Notes under the pieces: generated by a model
Seen by the model: the letters and a program-made list of their open reading frames with translations, nothing else
Databases searched by the model: none
Told to the model about the DNA's origin: nothing
In this document: piece by piece, positions 4,305 through 14,150 of the stretch
How the letters are laid out: every line of letters starts with the position of its first letter
How positions within the stretch are numbered: position 1 is the first letter of the stretch
DNA from: Nocardioides sp. AX2bis
GTDB lineage: Bacteria > Actinomycetota > Actinomycetes > Propionibacteriales > Nocardioidaceae
Assembly: GCF_902506435.1 (NCBI RefSeq)
Contig: NZ_LR733215.1
Span: forward strand, 3,515,696-3,579,695
Direction: 5' to 3'
DNA length: 64,000 nt
Translations under genes and position numbers: made by a program

Positions 4305-5002
4305 CGCCCACCCTCGCCCGGGGCCTGGTAGGTGCCGCCGGAGGAGAAGGCCTGGGCGCGCTCGGCGGCCGGGATCAGGTCGGCGGCCGGCTCGGAGTAG
4401 GTCAGCGTGACCAGCCGCTCGTCGTCGAAGTGCAGCGAGGTGACCGAGCACAGCGTGCAGCGCCGGTTCTTCGGCAGGTGCAGGAAGGGCCGGCCCTCGA
4501 CGTGCAGCCGGGTGGTCCAGATCGGCAGCTGGTGGGAGACCACGACGGCCTCGTGGCCGAGCGCCTCGCGGCGGGCGTCGTGGATCGCGGCCATCATCCG
4601 GCCGACGATCAGGCGGTAGGGCTCGCCCCAGGACGGGCGCCACGGGTTGTAGAGGTGCCGCCAGGTGCGGGGGTCCTTGAGCGCGTTGTGGCCGTTGCCG
4701 AACCGCTCGCCCTCGAAGACGTTGCCGGACTCGATGACCCGCTCGTCGGTGCGCACCGCGAGGCCGCGCGCGGCGGCCAGCGGCGCGATCGTCTCCTGCA
4801 CCCGCTCCAGCGGGGAGGCGCGCAGGTGGACGATGTCGCGGTGACCCAGCGCCTCGGCGACCTTGTCGGCCATCGCCAGGCCGCGGGTCGAGAGGTGGAA
4901 GCCGTCGCGGCGGCCGTAGAGCACCCCGCGCGGGTTGTGGACCTCACCGTGGCGCAGCAGGTGCACGACGGTCCGGGTGGTGCCCGGCGCCGGGGCGCTC
5001 AC
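4301..5002 (-). CDS. Histidine phosphatase family protein
   Basis: Member of the phosphoglycerate mutase/histidine phosphatase superfamily. The catalytic LLRHGE motif (R17, H18, G19) starts the domain and a second histidine, H157 in VVVSHQLP, completes the active site; an [11 protein letters not shown] segment supplies the further arginine. It is 233 residues with the GTG at 5002, which overlaps the hemL stop as GTGA. The substrate cannot be read from sequence. Its fixed place between hemL and the cytochrome c maturation genes is, from memory, also seen in mycobacteria (a mutase-like protein after hemL), so the linkage is probably old. A true glycolytic mutase is unlikely. Confidence 0.85.
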
Positions 5003-6366
5003 GCCCGTCCCCCGGCGGCGGCGGCGGCGGCGGTGTCCTGGGCGGCGGCCGCGGCGCGGGCGGCGTCGGGCAGCGCGGCCAGGATCGTCGAGATCGCGCG
5101 GTCGTCGTGCGCGGCGGAGAGGAACCACGCCTCGTAGGCCGACGGCGGCAGGTAGACGCCGCGGTCGAGCATGGCGTGGAAGAAGGCCCCGTAGGCCGCG
5201 GCGTCGGTGCGGGAGGCCTCGGTGAAGTCGCGCACCGGGCCCTCGGTGAGGAACACCGAGAACATCGTGCCGGCGGACTGCACCGCGTGGGCGACGCCGG
5301 CGGCGTCGAGGGCCTCGGTGACGCCGGCCTTGACGACCTCGCCGGCCTTCGTGAGGTGGTCGTAGACCTCGTCGGTGGCCAGTCGCAGCGTGGTCAGCCC
5401 GGCGGTGGTGGCGACGGGGTTCCCCGACAGCGTGCCGGCCTGGTAGACCGGCCCCTCCGGGGCGAGGCGCGACATGACGTCGGCGCGGCCGCCGAAGGCC
5501 GCGGCCGGGAAGCCGCCGCCCATGACCTTGCCCATCACCACCAGGTCGGGCGTCCAGCCCTCGACGGCGCCGTCGATGCCCCAGTAGCCCTGGCGGCTGG
5601 CGCGGAAGCCGGTCATCACCTCGTCGGAGACGAAGAGCGCGCCGTGCTCGGCGCAGGTGCGGGACAGGAACTCGTTGAAGCCGGGCTCGGGCGGGACCAC
5701 GCCCATGTTGCCGGGCGAGGCCTCGGTCACCAGGCAGGCGATCCGGTCGCCGTGCTCGGCGAAGGCGGCCGTCACGGCCGCGCGGTCGTTGTAGGGCAGC
5801 ACGAGGGTGAGCTCGGTGGCCGAGGTCGGCACGCCGGGCGTGCCGGGGACCGCGAAGGTGGCCAGCCCGGAGCCGGCCGAGGCCAGCAGCGCGTCGACGT
5901 GGCCGTGGTAGCAGCCGGCGAACTTCACCACGACGTCGCGCCCGGTGAAGCCGCGGGCCAGCCGGATCGCCGACATCGAGGCCTCGGTGCCGGAGGAGGT
6001 GAAGCGGACCTTCTCCACCGGCGCCCGGGACACGATCTCCTCGGCCAGCTCGACCTCGGGCACGGTCGGGGCGCCGTACGACGTCCCGCGCGCGACCGCG
6101 GCCTGGACGGCGGCCTGGACCTCGGGGTGGGCGTGGCCCAGGAGCATCGGCCCCCACGAGCAGATCAGGTCGACCATCTCGTTGCCGTCGGCGTCGGTGA
6201 GCCACGCTCCCTGGGCCGAGGTGATGAAGCGGGGGCTGCCCCCGACCGCGGCGAAGGCGCGGACCGGCGAGTTCACGCCGCCGGGCGTGACCGCCCGGGC
6301 TCGCTCGAACAGGGCCTCGGAGGCGGGCGCGGCGGACGGCGTGCTGGACGGCGTGGCAGAGGGCAC
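4999..6366 (-). CDS. hemL: Glutamate-1-semialdehyde 2,1-aminomutase
   Basis: PLP enzyme that converts glutamate-1-semialdehyde, the product of glutamyl-tRNA reductase (hemA at 11969-13315), into 5-aminolevulinate. Visible features over 455 residues are the N-terminal PGGVNSPVR signature, the TSSGTEA phosphate-binding loop, an SDEV aspartate (D248) for the PLP ring nitrogen, and the Schiff-base lysine K280 in VMGKVMGGG. The GTG at 6366 follows a purine-rich GGAGGATGGGGAG stretch. An in-frame start further upstream would add about 30 residues with no family counterpart. It is the first gene of the six-gene overlapped operon ending in ccsB. Confidence 0.94.
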
Positions 6367-6522
6367 CTCCCCATCCTCCCGCGCCACGCAACGCCACCCA
6401 AACCGCACGGGGGTGGTCTCGGGCACGTCACACCCGGCTCGACGCCGGACCAGCACGTCGTACTGGGAGGACGAGTGTTCGCCCGATCTGCCCAGAGGGG
6501 TCCCGCTGGGACCTACCGACGC

Positions 6523-6538
6523 GTAACGTGACGGTCAC
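6523..6538 (+). promoter_or_regulatory. Candidate MtrA-type direct repeat
   Basis: GTAAC and GTCAC, separated by 6 nt, lie about 60 bp upstream of the transglycosylase start. Actinobacterial MtrA response regulators recognise GTNAC-like direct repeats upstream of cell-wall hydrolase genes, so a site here is plausible, but the match is short and could be chance. Confidence 0.3.
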
Positions 6539-6598
6539 TTGTGCGTTGTGTCACCTGTCAGGCCTTGTGGGAGGTCTGCGTCCACCGAGGAGTTGTGC

Positions 6599-7873
6599 AT
6601 GTCCGACCCCCGCCGCCGCCGGCTGCAGCGTGCCACGGCGATCCTGCCGCTGGCGCTGCTCTCCGCGGCCGTCACCGCCAGTCTCGCCTCGCCGCAGGCC
6701 GCCCTGACGACCGTCGACGGGCAGCAGGCGCTGCCGAAGCCGGGCTCGCTGCCCGACGGGTCGACGCTGCCGGAGCAGGCCATCGAGGCGCCGGCCAGCC
6801 TGTCGTCGCCCAGCCGCTCCGGTGGGCTGGGCCTGGGCGGGCGTGAGGCGGCGGTGCAGAACGCCTCCACCAACGACATCCCCTCGGCCGCCCTGGCGGC
6901 CTACCAGCGGGCCGCGACCGTCGTGAACGCCGCCGACGAGTCCTGCTCGATCCCGTGGCAGCTGATCGCCGCCGTCGGCCGGGTCGAGTCCGACCACGGC
7001 CGCTACGGCGGCAACGTGCTCGACGACGAGGGCCTGGCCACGCCCGGCATCTACGGCGTCCCGCTCACCGGCAGCAACGGCACGGCGCGGATCACCGACA
7101 CCGACGCCGGCCAGTTCGACGACGACCAGCGCTTCGACCGGGCCGTGGGCCCGATGCAGTTCATCCCCTCCACCTGGGCCGTGGTCGGGGTCGACGCCGA
7201 CGGCGACGGCGAGCGGAACCCGCAGGACATCGACGACGCGGCCCTGGCCACGGGCGTCTACCTCTGCTCGGGCCCCGACGACCTCTCCGAGCGCCCCGGC
7301 CAGCGGGCCGCGGTGTTCCGCTACAACAACAGCAACTCCTACGTCGACCTCGTGATCTCGGTGATGGAGTCCTACCTCGGCGGCGACTTCACCAGCGTCC
7401 CGACCGGCACCACCGCCTCCGAGCCGATCGCCCCGGCCCCGGCGCCCCCGGTCCCGCCGACGCAGCGGCAGTTCCAGCCCGTGGCGCCGAGCACCCCGAG
7501 CGGCGGTGGCTCGAGCAGCACCCCGCCCGAGGCCTCGACCGGCGGCTCGACGACCGACGGCGGCGGTTCGACCACCACCCCGCCCGACTCTGGCGACGGT
7601 GGCTCCACCCCGGTCACTCCCCCTGCGACGGGCGGCGGCGGAACCGGTGGCGGCGGCCTCGGCGACCTCGGCGGTGCCGTCGACGACGCCCTCGGCACCG
7701 GTGGCGGTGGCGGTGGCGGCAGCACCGGCGGCGGCGGAGGTGGCGGCGGCGCCGGCCCGGTCGAGGAGACGCTGACCAAGGCCGAGGCGACGGCGCAGTG
7801 CCTGGCCTCGGGCATCGGAGCTCTGGAGGTCGCGAAGCTGGCCGCCTGTGTCGAGGACCTGGTGAACCCCTGA
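6599..7873 (+). CDS. Secreted lytic transglycosylase with low-complexity tail
   Basis: Predicted secreted peptidoglycan hydrolase that cleaves the MurNAc-GlcNAc bond. The 424-residue protein has a basic, hydrophobic signal segment at residues 5-30 and a lysozyme-like transglycosylase domain at about 95-245. The candidate catalytic glutamate is E130 in RVESDHG, and the domain also has a GPMQFIPSTW motif. A Pro/Thr/Gly/Ser-rich tail of about 140 residues follows, with long glycine tracts, and then a C-terminal block of some 35 residues with two cysteines. The ATG at 6599 has GAGGAG six bases upstream. The tail is probably a wall-spanning linker. A strong palindromic terminator follows the stop. 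Confidence 0.88.
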   Translation: MSDPRRRRLQRATAILPLALLSAAVTASLASPQAALTTVDGQQALPKPGSLPDGSTLPEQAIEAPASLSSPSRSGGLGLGGREAAVQNASTNDIPSAALAAYQRAATVVNAADESCSIPWQLIAAVGRVESDHGRYGGNVLDDEGLATPGIYGVPLTGSNGTARITDTDAGQFDDDQRFDRAVGPMQFIPSTWAVVGVDADGDGERNPQDIDDAALATGVYLCSGPDDLSERPGQRAAVFRYNNSNSYVDLVISVMESYLGGDFTSVPTGTTASEPIAPAPAPPVPPTQRQFQPVAPSTPSGGGSSSTPPEASTGGSTTDGGGSTTTPPDSGDGGSTPVTPPATGGGGTGGGGLGDLGGAVDDALGTGGGGGGGSTGGGGGGGGAGPVEETLTKAEATAQCLASGIGALEVAKLAACVEDLVNP

Positions 7874-7896
7874 CCCACCCGGTCCCCGGACCGACC

Positions 7897-7932
7897 GAGA
7901 CCCCCGTACGGCAGCTGCCGTACGGGGGTCTC
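7897..7932. terminator. 36-bp perfect palindrome, likely intrinsic terminator
   Basis: GAGACCCCCGTACGGCAG is followed directly by its exact reverse complement, centred at 7914/7915. The first half begins 24 bp after the transglycosylase stop. No U-tract follows, as is usual in high-GC actinobacteria. Confidence 0.75.
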
Positions 7933-7981
7933 GTGCGTCTCATGCGTCCGGGTCGGCTCGGCGGGCCGCCCCGCGGGCGCG

Positions 7982-8031
7982 GGACGTCATCCGCCGCGAC
8001 GCTCGGCCCGACCGCAGCTCGTATGACGTCC
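7982..8031. repeat. 9-bp perfect inverted repeat with 32-nt loop
   Basis: GGACGTCAT (7982-7990) and ATGACGTCC (8023-8031) are exact reverse complements, with GC-rich flanks that could extend the stem if one base bulges. The repeat could be an outer stem of the adjacent RNA candidate or an operator for its promoter. Confidence 0.4.
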
Positions 8032-8065
8032 GCGGCCCGGCGGCTCGTCCACCAGGGCCAGACGT

Positions 8066-8213
8066 GCAAAGAACCCGTCTCAGCGGGCCCCCCGGCTCGC
8101 TCAAACGGGTTCTTGCTTGATCATGATGCGCATCCACCCCCCGGCGGAGGCATCACTCTCGGTGTTCGTGGAATCCCCCCGGATTCCGATCATCGATCAG
8201 GGCCCCCCGGCCC
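8066..8213 (+). ncRNA. 6C-like structured RNA with four C6 runs
   Basis: Four runs of exactly six cytosines lie within 121 nt (8088-8093, 8137-8142, 8175-8180, 8203-8208). Three sit in hairpins of one plan, with a stem ending in CC, four loop C and GG: 8082-8101 (8 bp), 8170-8187 (7 bp, GGAATCC/GGATTCC) and 8200-8213 (5 bp). The first is carried on a longer stem, 8066-8078 with 8105-8116, that has one bulge. TGATC-ATGAT (8118-8127) pairs with ATCAT-(C)-GATCA (8189-8199) to enclose the middle part. C-rich hairpin loops define the actinobacterial 6C RNA class. It lies between convergent genes, so it needs its own promoter, which I cannot see clearly. Exact ends are unknown. Confidence 0.62.
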
Positions 8214-8308
8214 CTCCCGACAAGGTCAAGGGTACGACCGGGCGGACCGGCCACCCACCCCTGGCGAGACACACCTGTTCAACAGATGAGTAACAGCTCC
8301 GGGGGCCG

Positions 8309-9283
8309 TCAGCGGTGCGCGAGCAGCCGGGCTGCCTCGGCCGCCCAGTAGGTCAGGACCACGTCGGCCCCGGCCCGTCGGATCGAGGTCAGCGTCTCCA
8401 GGATGGCGGCCTCGCGGTCGATCCAGCCGCGCTCGGCGGCCGCCTCGAGCATGGAGTACTCCCCCGAGACGTTGTAGGCCGCGACCGGGACCTCGACGGC
8501 GTCGCGCACGCGGCGCAGCACGTCGAGGTAGGCCAGGGCCGGCTTGACCATCACGAGGTCGGCGCCCTCAGCGACGTCGAGCCGGGCCTCGCGCACGCCC
8601 TCGACGGCGTTGGCGGCGTCCTGCTGGTACGTCCGCCGGTCGCCCTGGAGCGAGGACCCGACGGCCTCGCGGAACGGTCCGAAGAAGGCCGAGGCGTACT
8701 TCGCGGAGTAGGCCAGCACCGAGACGTCGGTGTGCCCGGCGCCGTCGAGCGCGGCGCGCACGACCGCGACCTGACCGTCCATCATCCCGCTCGGCCCGAC
8801 CATGTCGACGCCGGCAGCGGCGTGGGCACGGGCCATCTCGGCGTACCGCACGAGGGTCGCGTCGTTGTCGACGCGCCCGTCGGGCGTGAGCACCCCGCAG
8901 TGGCCGTGGTCGGTGAACTCGTCGAGGCACAGGTCGCTCATCACGGTCAGCGCCTCGCCCACCTCGCCGACGACGTCGGTGATGGCACGGTTGAGGACCC
9001 CGTCGGGATCGGTCGCGCCGGAGCCGACGGCGTCCTTGTGCTCGGGCACGCCGAAGAGCATCAGCCCGCCGAGCCCGAGCTCGGCGGCCTCGGCGGCCGC
9101 CCGGCGCAGGGAGTCACGGGAGTGCTGGACGACGCCGGGCATCGAGCCGATCGGCACCGGCTCGCTGAGGCCCTCGCGCACGAAGACCGGCAGCACGAGC
9201 TGCCGTGCCTCGAGCGACGTCTCGGCCACCATCCGGCGCAGCGCCGGGGTGGTCCGCAGCCGGCGCGGGCGCACCACCGGCAC
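8309..9283 (-). CDS. hemB: Porphobilinogen synthase (delta-aminolevulinate dehydratase)
   Basis: Condenses two 5-aminolevulinate molecules to porphobilinogen. The 324-residue protein carries both active-site lysines of the family, K195 in AYSAKYAS and K247 in VMVKPAL, and a cysteine-containing metal segment (C119, H127, C129) that suggests a Zn-dependent type. The GTG at 9283 has GGAGGG seven bases upstream. Later GTGs at 9277 and 9274 are less well spaced. The gene lies 26 bp after the HemD fusion gene and is probably the last cistron of the rex-hem operon. Confidence 0.95.
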
Positions 9284-9309
9284 GCCCGCACCCTCCGGCA
9301 GCCCGCCGG

Positions 9310-10950
9310 TCACGACGACGAGGTCGCCTTGCGTCGGGCCGCGGGCTTGCGCTCCGACGGCCGGGTGACGGCCACGCCCTCCTCGAGCAGGCCGGAGCGC
9401 CGGGTCGCGCCGAAGTCGGCGAGCGCGTCGGCCAGGACACCGACGTCGGGCTTGGGCGACATCACGTCGACGCGCAGCCCGTGCTCCTCGGCGGTCTTGG
9501 CCGTCGCGGGGCCGATCACCGCGATGATCGTCGAGGGGTGCGGCTTGCCCGCGATGCCGACCAGGTTGCGCACGGTCGAGGAGGAGGTGAAGACCACCGC
9601 GTCGAACTTGCCCGTCTTGATCGCGTCGCGGGTCGGGGCCGGCGGCGGCGCGGCGCGCACGGTCCGGTACGCGGTCACGTCGTCGCACTCCCAGCCGAGG
9701 TCGACCAGGCCGGCCACGAGGTTCTCGGTGGCGATGTCGGCGCGGGGCAGGAAGACCCGGTTGATCGGGTCGAGCGTCTCGTCGTACTCCGGCCAGTCCT
9801 CCAGCAGCCCGGCGGCCGACTGGTCGCCCGAGGGCACCAGGTCGGCCCGCAGGCCCCAGGTGGCCACCGAGGCGGCGGTCTTCTCACCGACGCAGGCGAT
9901 CTTGAGGCCGGAGAAGGCGCGGGCGTCCAGGCCGTACTCCTCGAACTTCTCGCGGACGGCCTTCACCGCGTTGACCGAGGTGAAGACGATCCACTCGTAG
10001 CGGCCCTCCACCAGGCCGCGGACGGCCTTGTCCATCTGCAGCGGGTTGCGGGGCGGCTCGACCGAGATGGTCGGCACCTCCTCGGGCACCGCGCCGTAGC
10101 CGCGCAGACGCGTCGACAGGGTCGCGGCCTGCTCCTTGGTGCGGGGCACCAGCACGCGCCAGCCGAACAGCGGCTTCGTCTCGAACCACGACAGCGTGTC
10201 GCGCAGGTCGACGACGTCACCGATCACGATGACCGCCGGCGGGGCGATCCGGGTGGCGCGGACGTCCGCGGCGACGTGCTCGAGGGTGGAGGTCAGCGTC
10301 TCCTGCTCGGTGGTGGTGCCGACCCGGGTGATCGCCACGGGCGTACGCGGGTCGCGTCCCGCGGCCACCAGCTCGGCGGCCGTGTCGCCGATGGTGCCGA
10401 CGCCGGAGAGCAGCACCAGCGTGTCGTCGCCGGCGTAGCGGCTCCAGTCGACCTTGCCGCCGCAGGTCACGACCGAGACCGCGCGGCGGTCCTTGGTGGT
10501 CAGCGGGATGCCGGCGTAGGCCGGGACCGCGGAGACCGAGGAGACGCCGGGCACGACCTCGAAGCCGATGCCGGCCTTGACGCAGGCCTGCGCCTCCTCG
10601 GGCCCGGAGGCGTAGAGGAACGGGTCGCCGACCATCAGCCGGGCCACGCGGCGTCCGCGCTTGGCGTGCTTGAGCACCACCTTGGCCCGTGCGGCGTGGG
10701 TCAGCGGCTGGCCGTCCTCGCCGAAGCCGCCGTCGACGACCTCGGGGACGTCCTCGCCGGCGCCGAGCAGCGCCGCGACGAGCGCCTCGTGCTCGGGGAC
10801 CTCGGTCACCACGACGTCGGCGTCACCGAGCACGCTGATCGCGCGCACGGTGAGCAGGTCGGGGTCGCCGGGGCCGGTGCCGACGAAGGAGACCCAGGGC
10901 TGGGTGTCGTTCGCGGCGTCCGCGGTGGTGGGGGTCGTGCCTCGCGTCAT
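9310..10950 (-). CDS. hemD: Bifunctional uroporphyrinogen-III C-methyltransferase / uroporphyrinogen-III synthase
   Basis: A 546-residue fusion. Residues about 18-260 form the SUMT (CobA-like) domain, with the [14 protein letters not shown] opening and the GDPFLYASG and [17 protein letters not shown] motifs; it methylates uroporphyrinogen III towards siroheme and cobalamin. Residues about 275-520 form the HemD domain, which cyclises hydroxymethylbilane. The tail is basic and Ser-rich. The ATG at 10950 is preferred. An earlier ATG at 11034 overlaps the hemC stop, but the intervening codons are mostly A-ending (CCA, GCA, CGA, AGA), unlike genuine genes here. The fusion places the heme/siroheme branch point in one polypeptide. 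Confidence 0.92.
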
Positions 10951-11030
10951 GGGGTCTGCACCTCTGCTGCTCTGCGGTCGTGCGGATGGTCGTTCCTGGC
11001 GTGGTGGTGCGGGTGGGTCGGTGGTCCTGG

Positions 11031-11972
11031 TCATGTGGGGGCCGCCTCGAGGTCGCCGGCGCCGTCGGCCAGCATCTCGGCGGCCAGCCGGGCGCCGAGC
11101 CCGGCCGGGTCGGAGACGGGACCGGCCGCGGAGCTGCGGACGGCGAGCCCGCCGTCGAGGGACAGCGCGACCGCGCGGACCCACAGCTCGTCGCCGTCCT
11201 CGCCCTCGACGAGCTCGGCCATGGCCCCGATCGGGGCCGAGCAGCCGCCCTCGAGCGTGGCGAGCACGGCCCGCTCGGCCTCGACGCAGGCCCGCGCACG
11301 GGGGTCGTCGAGGTCGGCCAGCGCGGTGGCCAGCGGGTCGTCGGTCCGGCACTCGACCGCCAGCGCGCCCTGCCCGGGGGCGGGGAGCACCTGGATCGGG
11401 TCGAGCACCTCGGTGACCTCGTCGAGCCGGCCGAGGCGGGCCAGGCCGGCGCGCGCGAGCAGGACGGCGTCGTACTCGCCGGAGCGGACCTTGCCGATCC
11501 GGGTGTCGACGTTGCCGCGCACGCCCCGCAGCTCGAGGCCCAGGCCGAGGGCGTGGACCTGCGCGACGCGGCGCGGGGAGCCGGTGCCGACGACGCTGCC
11601 GACGGGCAGCTCGCCGAGGGTCAGGCCGTCGCGGGCCACCACGACGTCGCGGGAGTCCTCGCGGCCGGGCACGGCGACCAGGGAGATGCCGGCGGCCGGG
11701 TAGGTGGGCAGGTCCTTCAGCGAGTGCACGGCCACGTCGACCCGACCGGCCAGCAGGGCGTCGCGCAGGGCGCCGACGAAGACCCCGGTGCTGCCGGCGG
11801 TGGTGCTCTCGACCAGCGGGGTGCCGGCGGCCTGGCTGCGGTCGCCCTCGGTGGTGACCTCGACCAGCTCGACCTCACGGCCGAGCCGCTCGCGGATCAT
11901 CACCGCGATCGTCTCGGACTGCGTGGTGGCGAGCAGGGAGCGCCGGGTGCCGACGCGCACGGGAGCGTTCAC
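11031..11972 (-). CDS. hemC: Hydroxymethylbilane synthase (porphobilinogen deaminase)
   Basis: Polymerises four porphobilinogens into hydroxymethylbilane, the substrate of the following HemD domain. In 313 residues it shows the catalytic aspartate D87 in HSLKDLP, the arginine-rich substrate region GTGSPRR (130-135), and C244 in EGGCSAP, which holds the dipyrromethane cofactor. The GTG at 11972 overlaps the hemA stop (GTGA). Confidence 0.95.
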   Translation of the reverse strand: MNAPVRVGTRRSLLATTQSETIAVMIRERLGREVELVEVTTEGDRSQAAGTPLVESTTAGSTGVFVGALRDALLAGRVDVAVHSLKDLPTYPAAGISLVAVPGREDSRDVVVARDGLTLGELPVGSVVGTGSPRRVAQVHALGLGLELRGVRGNVDTRIGKVRSGEYDAVLLARAGLARLGRLDEVTEVLDPIQVLPAPGQGALAVECRTDDPLATALADLDDPRARACVEAERAVLATLEGGCSAPIGAMAELVEGEDGDELWVRAVALSLDGGLAVRSSAAGPVSDPAGLGARLAAEMLADGAGDLEAAPT

Positions 11973-13315
11973 GACGGCCCCTCCTCCCCGACCTTGGGAC
12001 GGGTGACGGCGTCGACGGCCTCGGGGTCGAGGGAGAACAGCTCGGCGAGCGCGGCGGCGTACGACACCGCGCCCTGCTCGTCGGCGAGCTCCTTGACCCG
12101 GACGGTGGGCTCGTGGAGGAGCTTGTCGGCCACGCGGCGCAGGGTGTGCAGCACCTCGGCGCGCACCTCGGCCTCGAGCCCGGGCAGCCGGGTGTCGAGG
12201 CGACCCATCTCGGTGTCGACGACGCCGGTGGCCATCGAGCGCAGCGCCACGACGGTGGGCGTGACGCTGGCCTGGCGGCGTGCGGCCAGGAAGGAGGTGA
12301 CCTCGTGGGTGACGATGTCGCGGACCTGCTCGACCTCGCGGCCGGCCTCGGTGTGCTGGAGCGTCTCGGCGAGCTCGGAGAGGCCGACCAGGCCGACGCC
12401 GGGGAGGTCGGCGACGGCCGGCTCGACGTCGCGGGGCAGGGCGAGGTCCAGCACGCACAGCGGCTCCCCGGCGCCGCGGCCGGCGGCCTGCCGGGCGGCG
12501 CTGACCTGGGCGGCGCTGACCAGGACGCCGGTGGCGCCGGTGCAGGTGATGACCACGTCGGCCTCGCCGAGCGCGAGGGGCAGGTCGGCCAGGCGCAGGG
12601 CACGGGTGGAGCCGGGCCCGGACCCGTCGGCGCGGGGGCCGTGCTCGGCGGCGAGCCGGTCGGCGCGCTCGGCGGAGCGGTTGACGACCGTGACCCGGCC
12701 CGCGCCGGCGCGGGCGACGGTGGCCACGGCGAGCCCGGCCATCGACCCGGCCCCGACCACGACGACGTCCTTGCCCGCGATCGCGCCGACCTGCGCCTCG
12801 GCGCGCGCCAGCGCCACCGAGACCAGCGACGGGGCGACCAGGTCGATGTCGGTCTCGGCGCGCGAGCGCTTGCCGACGCGCAGCGCCTGCTGGAACAGCA
12901 CGTTCAGCGACGGTCCGACGGTGCCGAGCTCCTGGCCGGTGCGCAGCGCCTTGCGGGTCTGGCCGAGGATCTGGCCCTCGCCGACGGCCATCGAGTCGAG
13001 GCCCGCGGCGACCTGGAAGAGGTGGGAGACCGCGCCGTCGTCGTAGTGGACGTAGAGGTGCGGCAGCATCGACTCGTCCTCGCCGGCCTGGTCGATGAGC
13101 ATCCGCGACAGGGTCTCGACGCTGCCGTGGAAGCGGTCGACGTCGGCGTAGATCTCGACCCGGTTGCAGGTGGCGATCACGGTCGCCTCGCTGACGCGGT
13201 CGGCGGTCGAGACGTCCTGGACCAGCTTGTGGACGGCGTCGTCGCTGAGCGCGACCTTCTCCAGCAGGGAGACGGGCGCGGAGCTGTGCGAGATGCCGAC
13301 GACGAGGACGCTCAT
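11969..13315 (-). CDS. hemA: Glutamyl-tRNA reductase
   Basis: First enzyme of the C5 heme pathway; it reduces glutamyl-tRNA to glutamate-1-semialdehyde for HemL (4999-6366). The 448-residue protein has the catalytic cysteine C50 in IATCNRVE, the GQILGQ region, an NADPH-binding VVGAGSMAG motif near residue 180 and a C-terminal dimerisation helix region. The ATG at 13315 overlaps the rex stop (ATGA), so synthesis is coupled to Rex, which puts heme entry under redox control. Confidence 0.95.
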   Translation of the reverse strand: MSVLVVGISHSSAPVSLLEKVALSDDAVHKLVQDVSTADRVSEATVIATCNRVEIYADVDRFHGSVETLSRMLIDQAGEDESMLPHLYVHYDDGAVSHLFQVAAGLDSMAVGEGQILGQTRKALRTGQELGTVGPSLNVLFQQALRVGKRSRAETDIDLVAPSLVSVALARAEAQVGAIAGKDVVVVGAGSMAGLAVATVARAGAGRVTVVNRSAERADRLAAEHGPRADGSGPGSTRALRLADLPLALGEADVVITCTGATGVLVSAAQVSAARQAAGRGAGEPLCVLDLALPRDVEPAVADLPGVGLVGLSELAETLQHTEAGREVEQVRDIVTHEVTSFLAARRQASVTPTVVALRSMATGVVDTEMGRLDTRLPGLEAEVRAEVLHTLRRVADKLLHEPTVRVKELADEQGAVSYAAALAELFSLDPEAVDAVTRPKVGEEGPS

Positions 13316-14025
13316 GCGGAGCCCACCTTCCGGGTCGGGGCCGTGGTCGTGGAGTCGAGGCCGGCCTTGCGCTGCTGGTGGTAGGCGAGGATCTGCAGCT
13401 CGATGGAGAGGTCCACCTTGCGCACGTCCACGCCCTTGGGGACGGCGAGCACCGCCGGGGCGAAGTTGAGGATGCTGGTGATCCCGCAGCCCACCATCCG
13501 GTCGGCCACGTCCTGGGCGGCCACGGCCGGGGTGGCGATCACGCCGATCGCGACCCCCTGGTCGCGCACCACGCCCTCGAGGTCGTCGAAGGGGCGGACC
13601 TCGACCCCGGCGACGACCTGGTCGTGCCGGTCGGGGTCGGCGTCGAGCAGCGCGACCACGCGGAACCCGCGGCTGCGGAAGCCGGAGAAGCTGGCCAGCG
13701 CCTGACCGAGGTTGCCGATGCCCACGATGACCACGGGCCAGTCCTGGGTCACGCCGATCTCGCGGGCGATCTGGTAGCGGAGGTACTCCACGTCGTAGCC
13801 GACCCCGCGGGTGCCGTAGCTGCCCAGGTGGGAGAGGTCCTTGCGGAGCTTGGCGCTGTTGACGCCGGCCACCGAGGCCAGGTGCTCGCTGGAGCAGGTG
13901 GCCGTCCCGGCGTCGGCCAGCGCGTTCAGGGCGCGCAGATAGACCGGGAGGCGCGCCACCGTGGCCTCCGGGATGTCCCGGGTCGCCTCGGCCGCACCGG
14001 GTCCGGCGGGTGTCCGTGAGGTCAC
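13312..14025 (-). CDS. rex: Redox-sensing transcriptional repressor Rex
   Basis: NADH/NAD+-sensing repressor. The 237-residue protein has a winged-helix domain at about 18-90 (IPEATVARLPVYLRAL, then NSAKLRKDL and GSYGTRGVGY), a Rossmann NAD-binding domain from about 97 with GIGNLG (102-107), and a C-terminal swapped helix ending LQILAYHQQRKAG. The GTG at 14025 is preferred: in-frame starts further up lie at or before the apparent -10 box at 14096-14101, and the short N-terminus matches other Rex proteins. Rex controls rex-hemACD and cytochrome bd genes in Streptomyces, and here it is overlapped with hemA. Confidence 0.93.
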   Translation of the reverse strand: MTSRTPAGPGAAEATRDIPEATVARLPVYLRALNALADAGTATCSSEHLASVAGVNSAKLRKDLSHLGSYGTRGVGYDVEYLRYQIAREIGVTQDWPVVIVGIGNLGQALASFSGFRSRGFRVVALLDADPDRHDQVVAGVEVRPFDDLEGVVRDQGVAIGVIATPAVAAQDVADRMVGCGITSILNFAPAVLAVPKGVDVRKVDLSIELQILAYHQQRKAGLDSTTTAPTRKVGSA

Positions 14026-14095
14026 TGCTCTGCTTTCCAGCCGCACGACGACGTCGGGGGCGCCTCGGTGTGTGGTGCGCGTGGCGGCGTCGTTC

Positions 14096-14124
14096 ACTGT
14101 AGGAGTTTGTGAACGGGAGAACAA
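14096..14124 (-). promoter_or_regulatory. rex promoter with candidate Rex operator
   Basis: On the minus strand, TTGTTC (14124-14119) and TACAGT (14101-14096) are spaced by 17 nt, a plausible vegetative promoter about 65 nt upstream of the rex GTG. The 16-bp segment 14108-14123 matches the Rex operator TGTGAACNNNTTCACA at 10 of 13 defined positions, with one half perfect, and overlaps the -35 box and spacer. That is where a repressor would act, consistent with autoregulation. Confidence 0.55.
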
Positions 14125-14150
14125 AACGAGCGACCGCAGGGGCTAGCACA

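Follow-up and report, generated by a model that had tools for sequence, protein, structure and literature searches.

Genomic context

The element studied here lies within a 64,000-nt stretch of the Nocardioides sp. AX2bis genome (the window) and is placed, as originally predicted, between convergent genes. Pfam identifies SLT_2 on one side, i.e., a transglycosylase-like gene, and ALAD (hemB) on the other. The features and their coordinates are listed in Table 1. The genes around hemB (4999-14149) read like a haem biosynthesis cluster, which we presume from the names suggested by their translations; of these, hemB was tested.

Downstream of the transglycosylase-like gene we find a perfect palindrome that is probably its terminator, with 61/62 positions kept in G143, a second genome of the genus. 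A match to the F6 sRNA family (RF01791) was rejected, since it is confined to this palindrome (7895-7934) and scores 34.8 bits compared to a gathering score of 46. Another, imperfect palindrome (7976-8036; GACGTCAT...ATGACGTC) looks like a dispersed repeat, i.e., matches of about 75-85% are found at many sites of the genus and at two more in the own genome.

Table 1. Annotated and predicted features of the locus (window coordinates)
Feature	Position	Strand	Remarks
Transglycosylase-like neighbour gene (SLT_2)	6539..7873	+	Pfam; start codon uncertain
Perfect 38-nt palindrome	7896..7933		3' of transglycosylase-like gene; outside the small RNA
Predicted small RNA, ~155 nt	8066..8222	-	start near 8222 and end near 8066, both predicted; from core conservation and fold
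Hairpin D, terminal, terminator-like (..GGGTTCTTT)	8069..8114	-	G6 run 8088-8093 in tip; aligns with terminal hairpins of relatives
Hairpin C	8124..8155	-	G6 run 8137-8142; from fold; contains substitution site 8127
Hairpin B	8170..8187	-	GGAATCC-GGGG-GGATTCC, G6 run 8175-8180; from fold
Hairpin A	8200..8213	-	G6 run 8203-8208 in tip; from fold
Predicted -10 box TACCCT (TAGTCT in G143)	8229..8234	-	61 bp after first T of TGTTAC
Activator-like motif	8279..8295	-	TGTTAC (8295-8290), 11 bp on TGTTGA (8284-8279); common to relatives
hemB neighbour (ALAD)	8309..9250	-	Pfam; covers the 3' part with most of the domain, start approximate

Run clustering and folding

On the plus strand, exact C6 runs start at 8088, 8137, 8175 and 8203, such that 121 nt separate the first from the last base (inclusive), in agreement with the original prediction. 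The window has 16 exact C6 runs in all, including these four. The cluster is something real and, as had been claimed, unlikely by chance: of 1000 dinucleotide-preserving shuffles of the window, 5 place four exact six-base runs of a single base inside 130 nt of either strand. This test is conservative, since the shuffles are richer in exact six-base runs than the window itself (mean 70 vs. 30 observed). The length of exactly six is no clue on its own, because all 30 C/G runs of at least six nucleotides within positions 1-64000 are six long and none is longer.

When each strand is folded, the tips of all four hairpins read CC-CCCC-GG on the plus and CC-GGGG-GG on the minus strand. That is, the predicted tip architecture is correct, while its count of three hairpins is not, as all four qualify. 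Compared to 200 shuffles per strand, the native sequence gives the better fold in every case (z of -4.84 for plus, -5.06 for minus), and because both strands fold about equally well the strand cannot be read from folding alone. Given a small RNA on the minus strand, the C6 runs of the plus strand are its G6 loops. In the following, we use 6G for arrays with G5-G7 runs in the hairpin tips of the RNA strand (4/4 in the window), a TGTTAC word with phased TAnnnT, and a terminator-like 3' hairpin.

Conservation at the locus

Among 215 genomes of the genus, the whole element has a DNA match in its own genome (G000) and in G143 only, which are about 93% identical over 18 kb. Within the core (8068-8222), 153/155 positions are identical between the window and G143, compared to 129/218 within the intergenic flanks (left 7936-8067: 63/132; right 8223-8308: 66/86; p=1.6e-22). 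This contrast holds against the flanks and not against the genome, since coding stretches also hold identical 155-nt windows. Together with the fold, this conservation supports the proposal of a structured RNA-like element. Absence of orthologues at this locus is based on the DNA search of the 215 genomes and not on hemB synteny; among the loci listed, the hemB-adjacent gaps differ between species. Hairpins are common in the convergent-gene gaps of relatives.

The two core substitutions between the window and G143 are found at 8115, which adjoins the stem of hairpin D, and at 8127 within hairpin C. For the latter, the plus-strand T is a C in G143, which keeps a G-U pair on the minus strand and gives a C-A mismatch on the plus strand.

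We also searched with a model of the whole element (R1). At E<=0.01 it matches 3/215 genomes, i.e., G000, G143 and, weakly, G075, where the match looks coding by eye. In G000 and G143, model R1 additionally picks up the antisense strand of hairpin D.

Identification of related arrays

A pattern of three CCCCCCGG matches 17/215 genus genomes; judged by eye from the matched sequences alone, most look like tandem repeats or C-rich stretches. The match that was followed further (G094) has three hairpins with different stems and the same tip type. On the right side, the window, G143 and G094 have the word ACAGNTNNGTAACA (plus strand) in common, which reads TGTTAC....CTGT on the minus strand. A C5 run located 60-90 bp before ACAGNNNNGTAACA occurs in 18/215 genomes, compared to 1 for the pattern read backwards. 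Among the 18 places behind this pattern (26 rows), 6 look like arrays, 11 belong to protein genes whose leaders carry a G run, and 1 looks like chance. The array-like loci (window, G143, G094, G016, G106 and G101) combine G-run hairpins with a terminator hairpin. The chance-like place, L193, appears to lie in a coding stretch and was dropped as a relative.

The arrays of G106 and G094 are both located 3' of the same conserved gene, which has no Pfam match and is present in 210/215 genomes. We evaluated the stretch downstream of this gene for 150 of the 210 genomes (30 from the search, 120 fetched; a few cut by contig ends). TGTTAC is present in 26/150 of these syntenic regions. At least two runs of five or more G are observed in 26/26 regions with TGTTAC and in 10/124 without (p=2.7e-21), where the 26 include G106 and G094, i.e., the loci that led to this gene. 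We further assessed the location of the G runs that follow TGTTAC, where a run counts as being in a hairpin loop if at least three of its Gs are unpaired within one loop of the local fold. This holds for 52/63 runs of the syntenic relatives vs. 17/59 for other stretches, 62/250 for hemB loci and 10-20/63 for shuffled flanks. According to Pfam, a LigD Prim-Pol gene follows the array in G106, and this tail can also be read in many of the others.

Relatives have diverged in sequence, and the number of loops changes while the loop type stays. Over 75 runs, 68 are preceded by two pyrimidines, 53 then have an A, and 43 are able to close a three-pair tip stem. That is, the 6G tip sequence is typical rather than constant. 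A second copy within the own genome (L345, C8:3175320-3175890) combines two G6 hairpins with one terminator hairpin. Two copies each are found in G000 and G143, two in tandem in G090 and at least two in G101. The tandem arrays of G090 (L244) are each preceded by their own TGTTAC promoter motif. Given these observations, the element is best described as a member of a putative small-RNA family in Nocardioides, with the window as its four-hairpin copy and at least one more copy in the own genome.

For the spread of the family, we used the pattern TGTTACN{33,63}TANNNTN{18,48}GGGGGG, which matches 25/120 genomes of the genus, 0/52 from the family's other genera and 14/219 of the rest of the order. 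Read backwards, the respective counts are 5/120, 6/52 and about 39/219; matches outside the genus are thus no more than chance, as the control matches as often or more. The pattern provides no census, because it misses the known arrays of G076 and G120, and some genus matches (L411, L426) are unlike the family. We read 22 of its genus loci; their rows were chosen by G6 and are therefore no independent evidence for it. For syntenic regions outside the genus, none of 20 has two or more runs of at least five G, i.e., no array is found. Single features there are one G6 run (L396), one G5 run (L390) and one TGTTAC/TGTCAC/TGTGAC word (L398).

Protein genes that combine the TGTTAC promoter type with a G5-G7 leader run were also seen (L180, L186, L188, L191, L195, L197; L181, L185, L402; L184, L190, L187). 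By eye, their products are Gly-rich, glycosyltransferase-like or secreted-like.

Promoter-like region

We compared the upstream regions of 30 loci, i.e., the 26 syntenic ones, the window, its G143 counterpart, G016 and G101. In 29/30 of them, TGTTAC is followed by a TAnnnT at about 40, 50, 61 or 71 bp, with the window at 61 bp, compared to a mean of 2 and a maximum of 8 in 2000 single-base shuffles; the phases (tolerance of one base) were picked after inspection of the data, and the 26 syntenic loci had been selected by TGTTAC itself. For the exception (G109), the second of two TGTTAC words had been used. Generic promoter and terminator scans report nothing on either strand at the window element, hairpin D included.

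TGG-type half-sites repeat at steps of about 11 bp, which looks like an activator array of the OmpR type. Some MtrA-bound fragments of M. tuberculosis given in PMC10609481 are similar to TGTTAC..TGTGG, where the authors find no clear affinity motif for MtrA. From this resemblance, MtrA is our candidate regulator. GlnR is another possibility; PMC10704036 describes its boxes as GTnAC-n6-G(a/t)nAC types. Half-sites spaced by 11 bp are common to MtrA/GlnR-type promoters and 6G, while the second half-site of 6G (TGTGGA) differs from the GlnR box.

Terminal hairpin and strand

An alignment is possible for 21 terminal hairpins with G5-G7 tips, among them that of the window. Both sides change in 8/13 predicted pairs, which reflects fewer independent events since several alignment rows are close relatives. 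Alignment and pair changes agree on a terminator-like 3' hairpin. For L408 and L421, a T tract is found at the end, which fits the minus-type direction.

Read as minus, the stems show more G-U than A-C combinations (109 to 76), compared to 851 to 853 for shuffled arms. As support for the minus strand this excess is modest, and it becomes weak when the set is reduced to 20 loci (78 to 61). The minus strand is favoured because the order of promoter-like and terminator-like parts in the relatives and the change at 8127 agree. We consider a minus-strand small RNA of the 6G family very probable on these grounds. Transcription from the opposite strand only, which the original prediction had named as contradicting its plus-strand RNA, is likely.

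Comparison with known RNA families

6C RNAs are defined by two hairpins whose loops, on the strand that is transcribed, are rich in C, and the element had been proposed to be 6C-like, with a search of Rfam as a check. The 6C model (RF01066) has no match in the window at gathering score and none within 7870-8320 even at E up to 5. It also matches 0/39 genomes, with the own genome among them; in 14 control genomes it gives a signal in one only (C. glutamicum), which is below the cut-off. The assignment to 6C is consequently not retained. For 12 loci of relatives, Rfam at E up to 0.5 reports three tRNAs in the flanks and a weak match to one miRNA model, i.e., the relatives tested fit no Rfam family. 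Within the open-access literature, we found no small RNA with G-rich loops in actinobacteria and no structured RNA in Nocardioidaceae; the Nocardioides small RNA covered there is Ms1. As far as open-access texts and Rfam go, the 6G family is apparently undescribed.

Among the known systems, 6C/B11 of mycobacteria is similar in being actinobacterial and in having several hairpins with one-base-run loops. According to PMC10470900, the loops of B11 act on a tract of six G within the eccB4 leader. In contrast, 6G loops are G6 on the strand assigned here, are carried by two to four or more hairpins, and have no Rfam match. For sX13 of Xanthomonas, PMC3771888 describes three stems whose apical loops consist of base runs and exert their effect in trans through pairing. 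6G likewise has several stems with such loops, while the C-rich loops and G-rich targets of sX13 are of opposite polarity and its host is unrelated.

Ms1, like 6G, is an actinobacterial small RNA traced through gene order. PMC9130861 places it next to HAD-hydrolase or oxidoreductase-type genes, whereas 6G is found beside SLT_2/hemB or, for other copies, a LigD-polymerase gene. Ms1 is ruled out by this gene order.

Sponge RNAs of the CsrB/RsmZ type have many hairpins with a repeated GGA loop motif that is bound by the CsrA protein. They share with 6G the repetition of one loop motif over many hairpins and differ in the motif itself (GGA and CsrA vs. G4-G7 loops).

Discussion

Structure, conservation, family, and promoter-like and terminator-like anatomy are supported by the sequence. 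From these we infer transcription, activator, pairing and targets as follows. An RNA of about 155 nt would be made from the minus strand, from about 8222 to 8066. Its promoter would comprise the half-sites TGTTAC and TGTTGA at 11 bp, to which a response regulator of the OmpR type, e.g., MtrA, probably binds, with the TAnnnT -10 box on the same helix face as the half-sites. The RNA itself would be a row of four hairpins with GGGG(GG) tips, the last of which doubles as terminator. The G-loops would most likely pair in trans with C-rich stretches of target RNAs, which inverts the C-loop arrangement known from 6C and sX13. We rate this explanation as a whole, from the minus-strand RNA over the phased promoter to G-loop pairing, as a coin toss.

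The pairing step, which we likewise consider about evenly balanced, is drawn from analogy to B11/6C and sX13, whose one-base-run loops pair with opposite-base runs in mRNAs according to PMC10470900 and PMC3771888. Against the explanation as a whole stand the tips, where all three closing pairs are possible in only 43/75 runs, and the presence of this copy in only 2/215 genus genomes.

The main rival, possible but rather unlikely, follows the logic of CsrB. That is, the same minus-strand RNA would act as a sponge that holds a G-loop-binding protein or C-rich RNA off mRNAs, namely those with a leader G run and the same promoter type. A variable number of loops with a constant loop type fits such a role, as do the protein genes with the same motif and a G5-G7 leader run, one of which, in G068, G112 and G101, is glycosyltransferase-like. 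However, these leader genes came from patterns that demanded the G run, and no G-loop-binding protein is known. We regard as somewhat less likely still an extended version, in which a CsrB-like circuit of Nocardioides' own would consist of G-loop RNAs, with at least two copies in several genomes, that share a response-regulator-type promoter with G-leader mRNAs, such that sponge and mRNAs would share the G-loop-binding protein or C-rich RNA.

It is improbable that the array is just a cluster of (bidirectional) terminator hairpins without function in trans. The convergent genes, the terminator-like hairpin D and the frequent hairpins in corresponding gaps of relatives would suit it, but G loops stay constant while stems change, a phased promoter-like motif is located beside the arrays, and the whole core is near-identical. 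Even less probable is the plus-strand RNA with C6 loops and 6C-like action of the original prediction: the plus strand shows C6 tips and a good fold, but no 6C match is obtained, the promoter-like/terminator-like order in relatives is that of the minus strand, and the 8127 change breaks a plus-strand pair. Finally, a 30-aa peptide encoded by the minus-strand RNA is hardly credible: its ORF is open in the window and G143, but both core substitutions alter an amino acid and no similar ORF is seen in the other 28 loci listed.

Returning to the 6G RNA, a caution applies to its strand: the hairpin array is alike on both strands, and the assignment made here derives only from the promoter and terminator context of the relatives. 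It is an open question in actinobacteria how small RNAs do their work in the absence of the usual chaperones. If true, the reading given here would add an apparently undescribed RNA family with base-run loops opposite in polarity to those of 6C. With loops that recur, a phased promoter that can be recognised and, in several species, genomes that carry it more than once, 6G would be directly testable.
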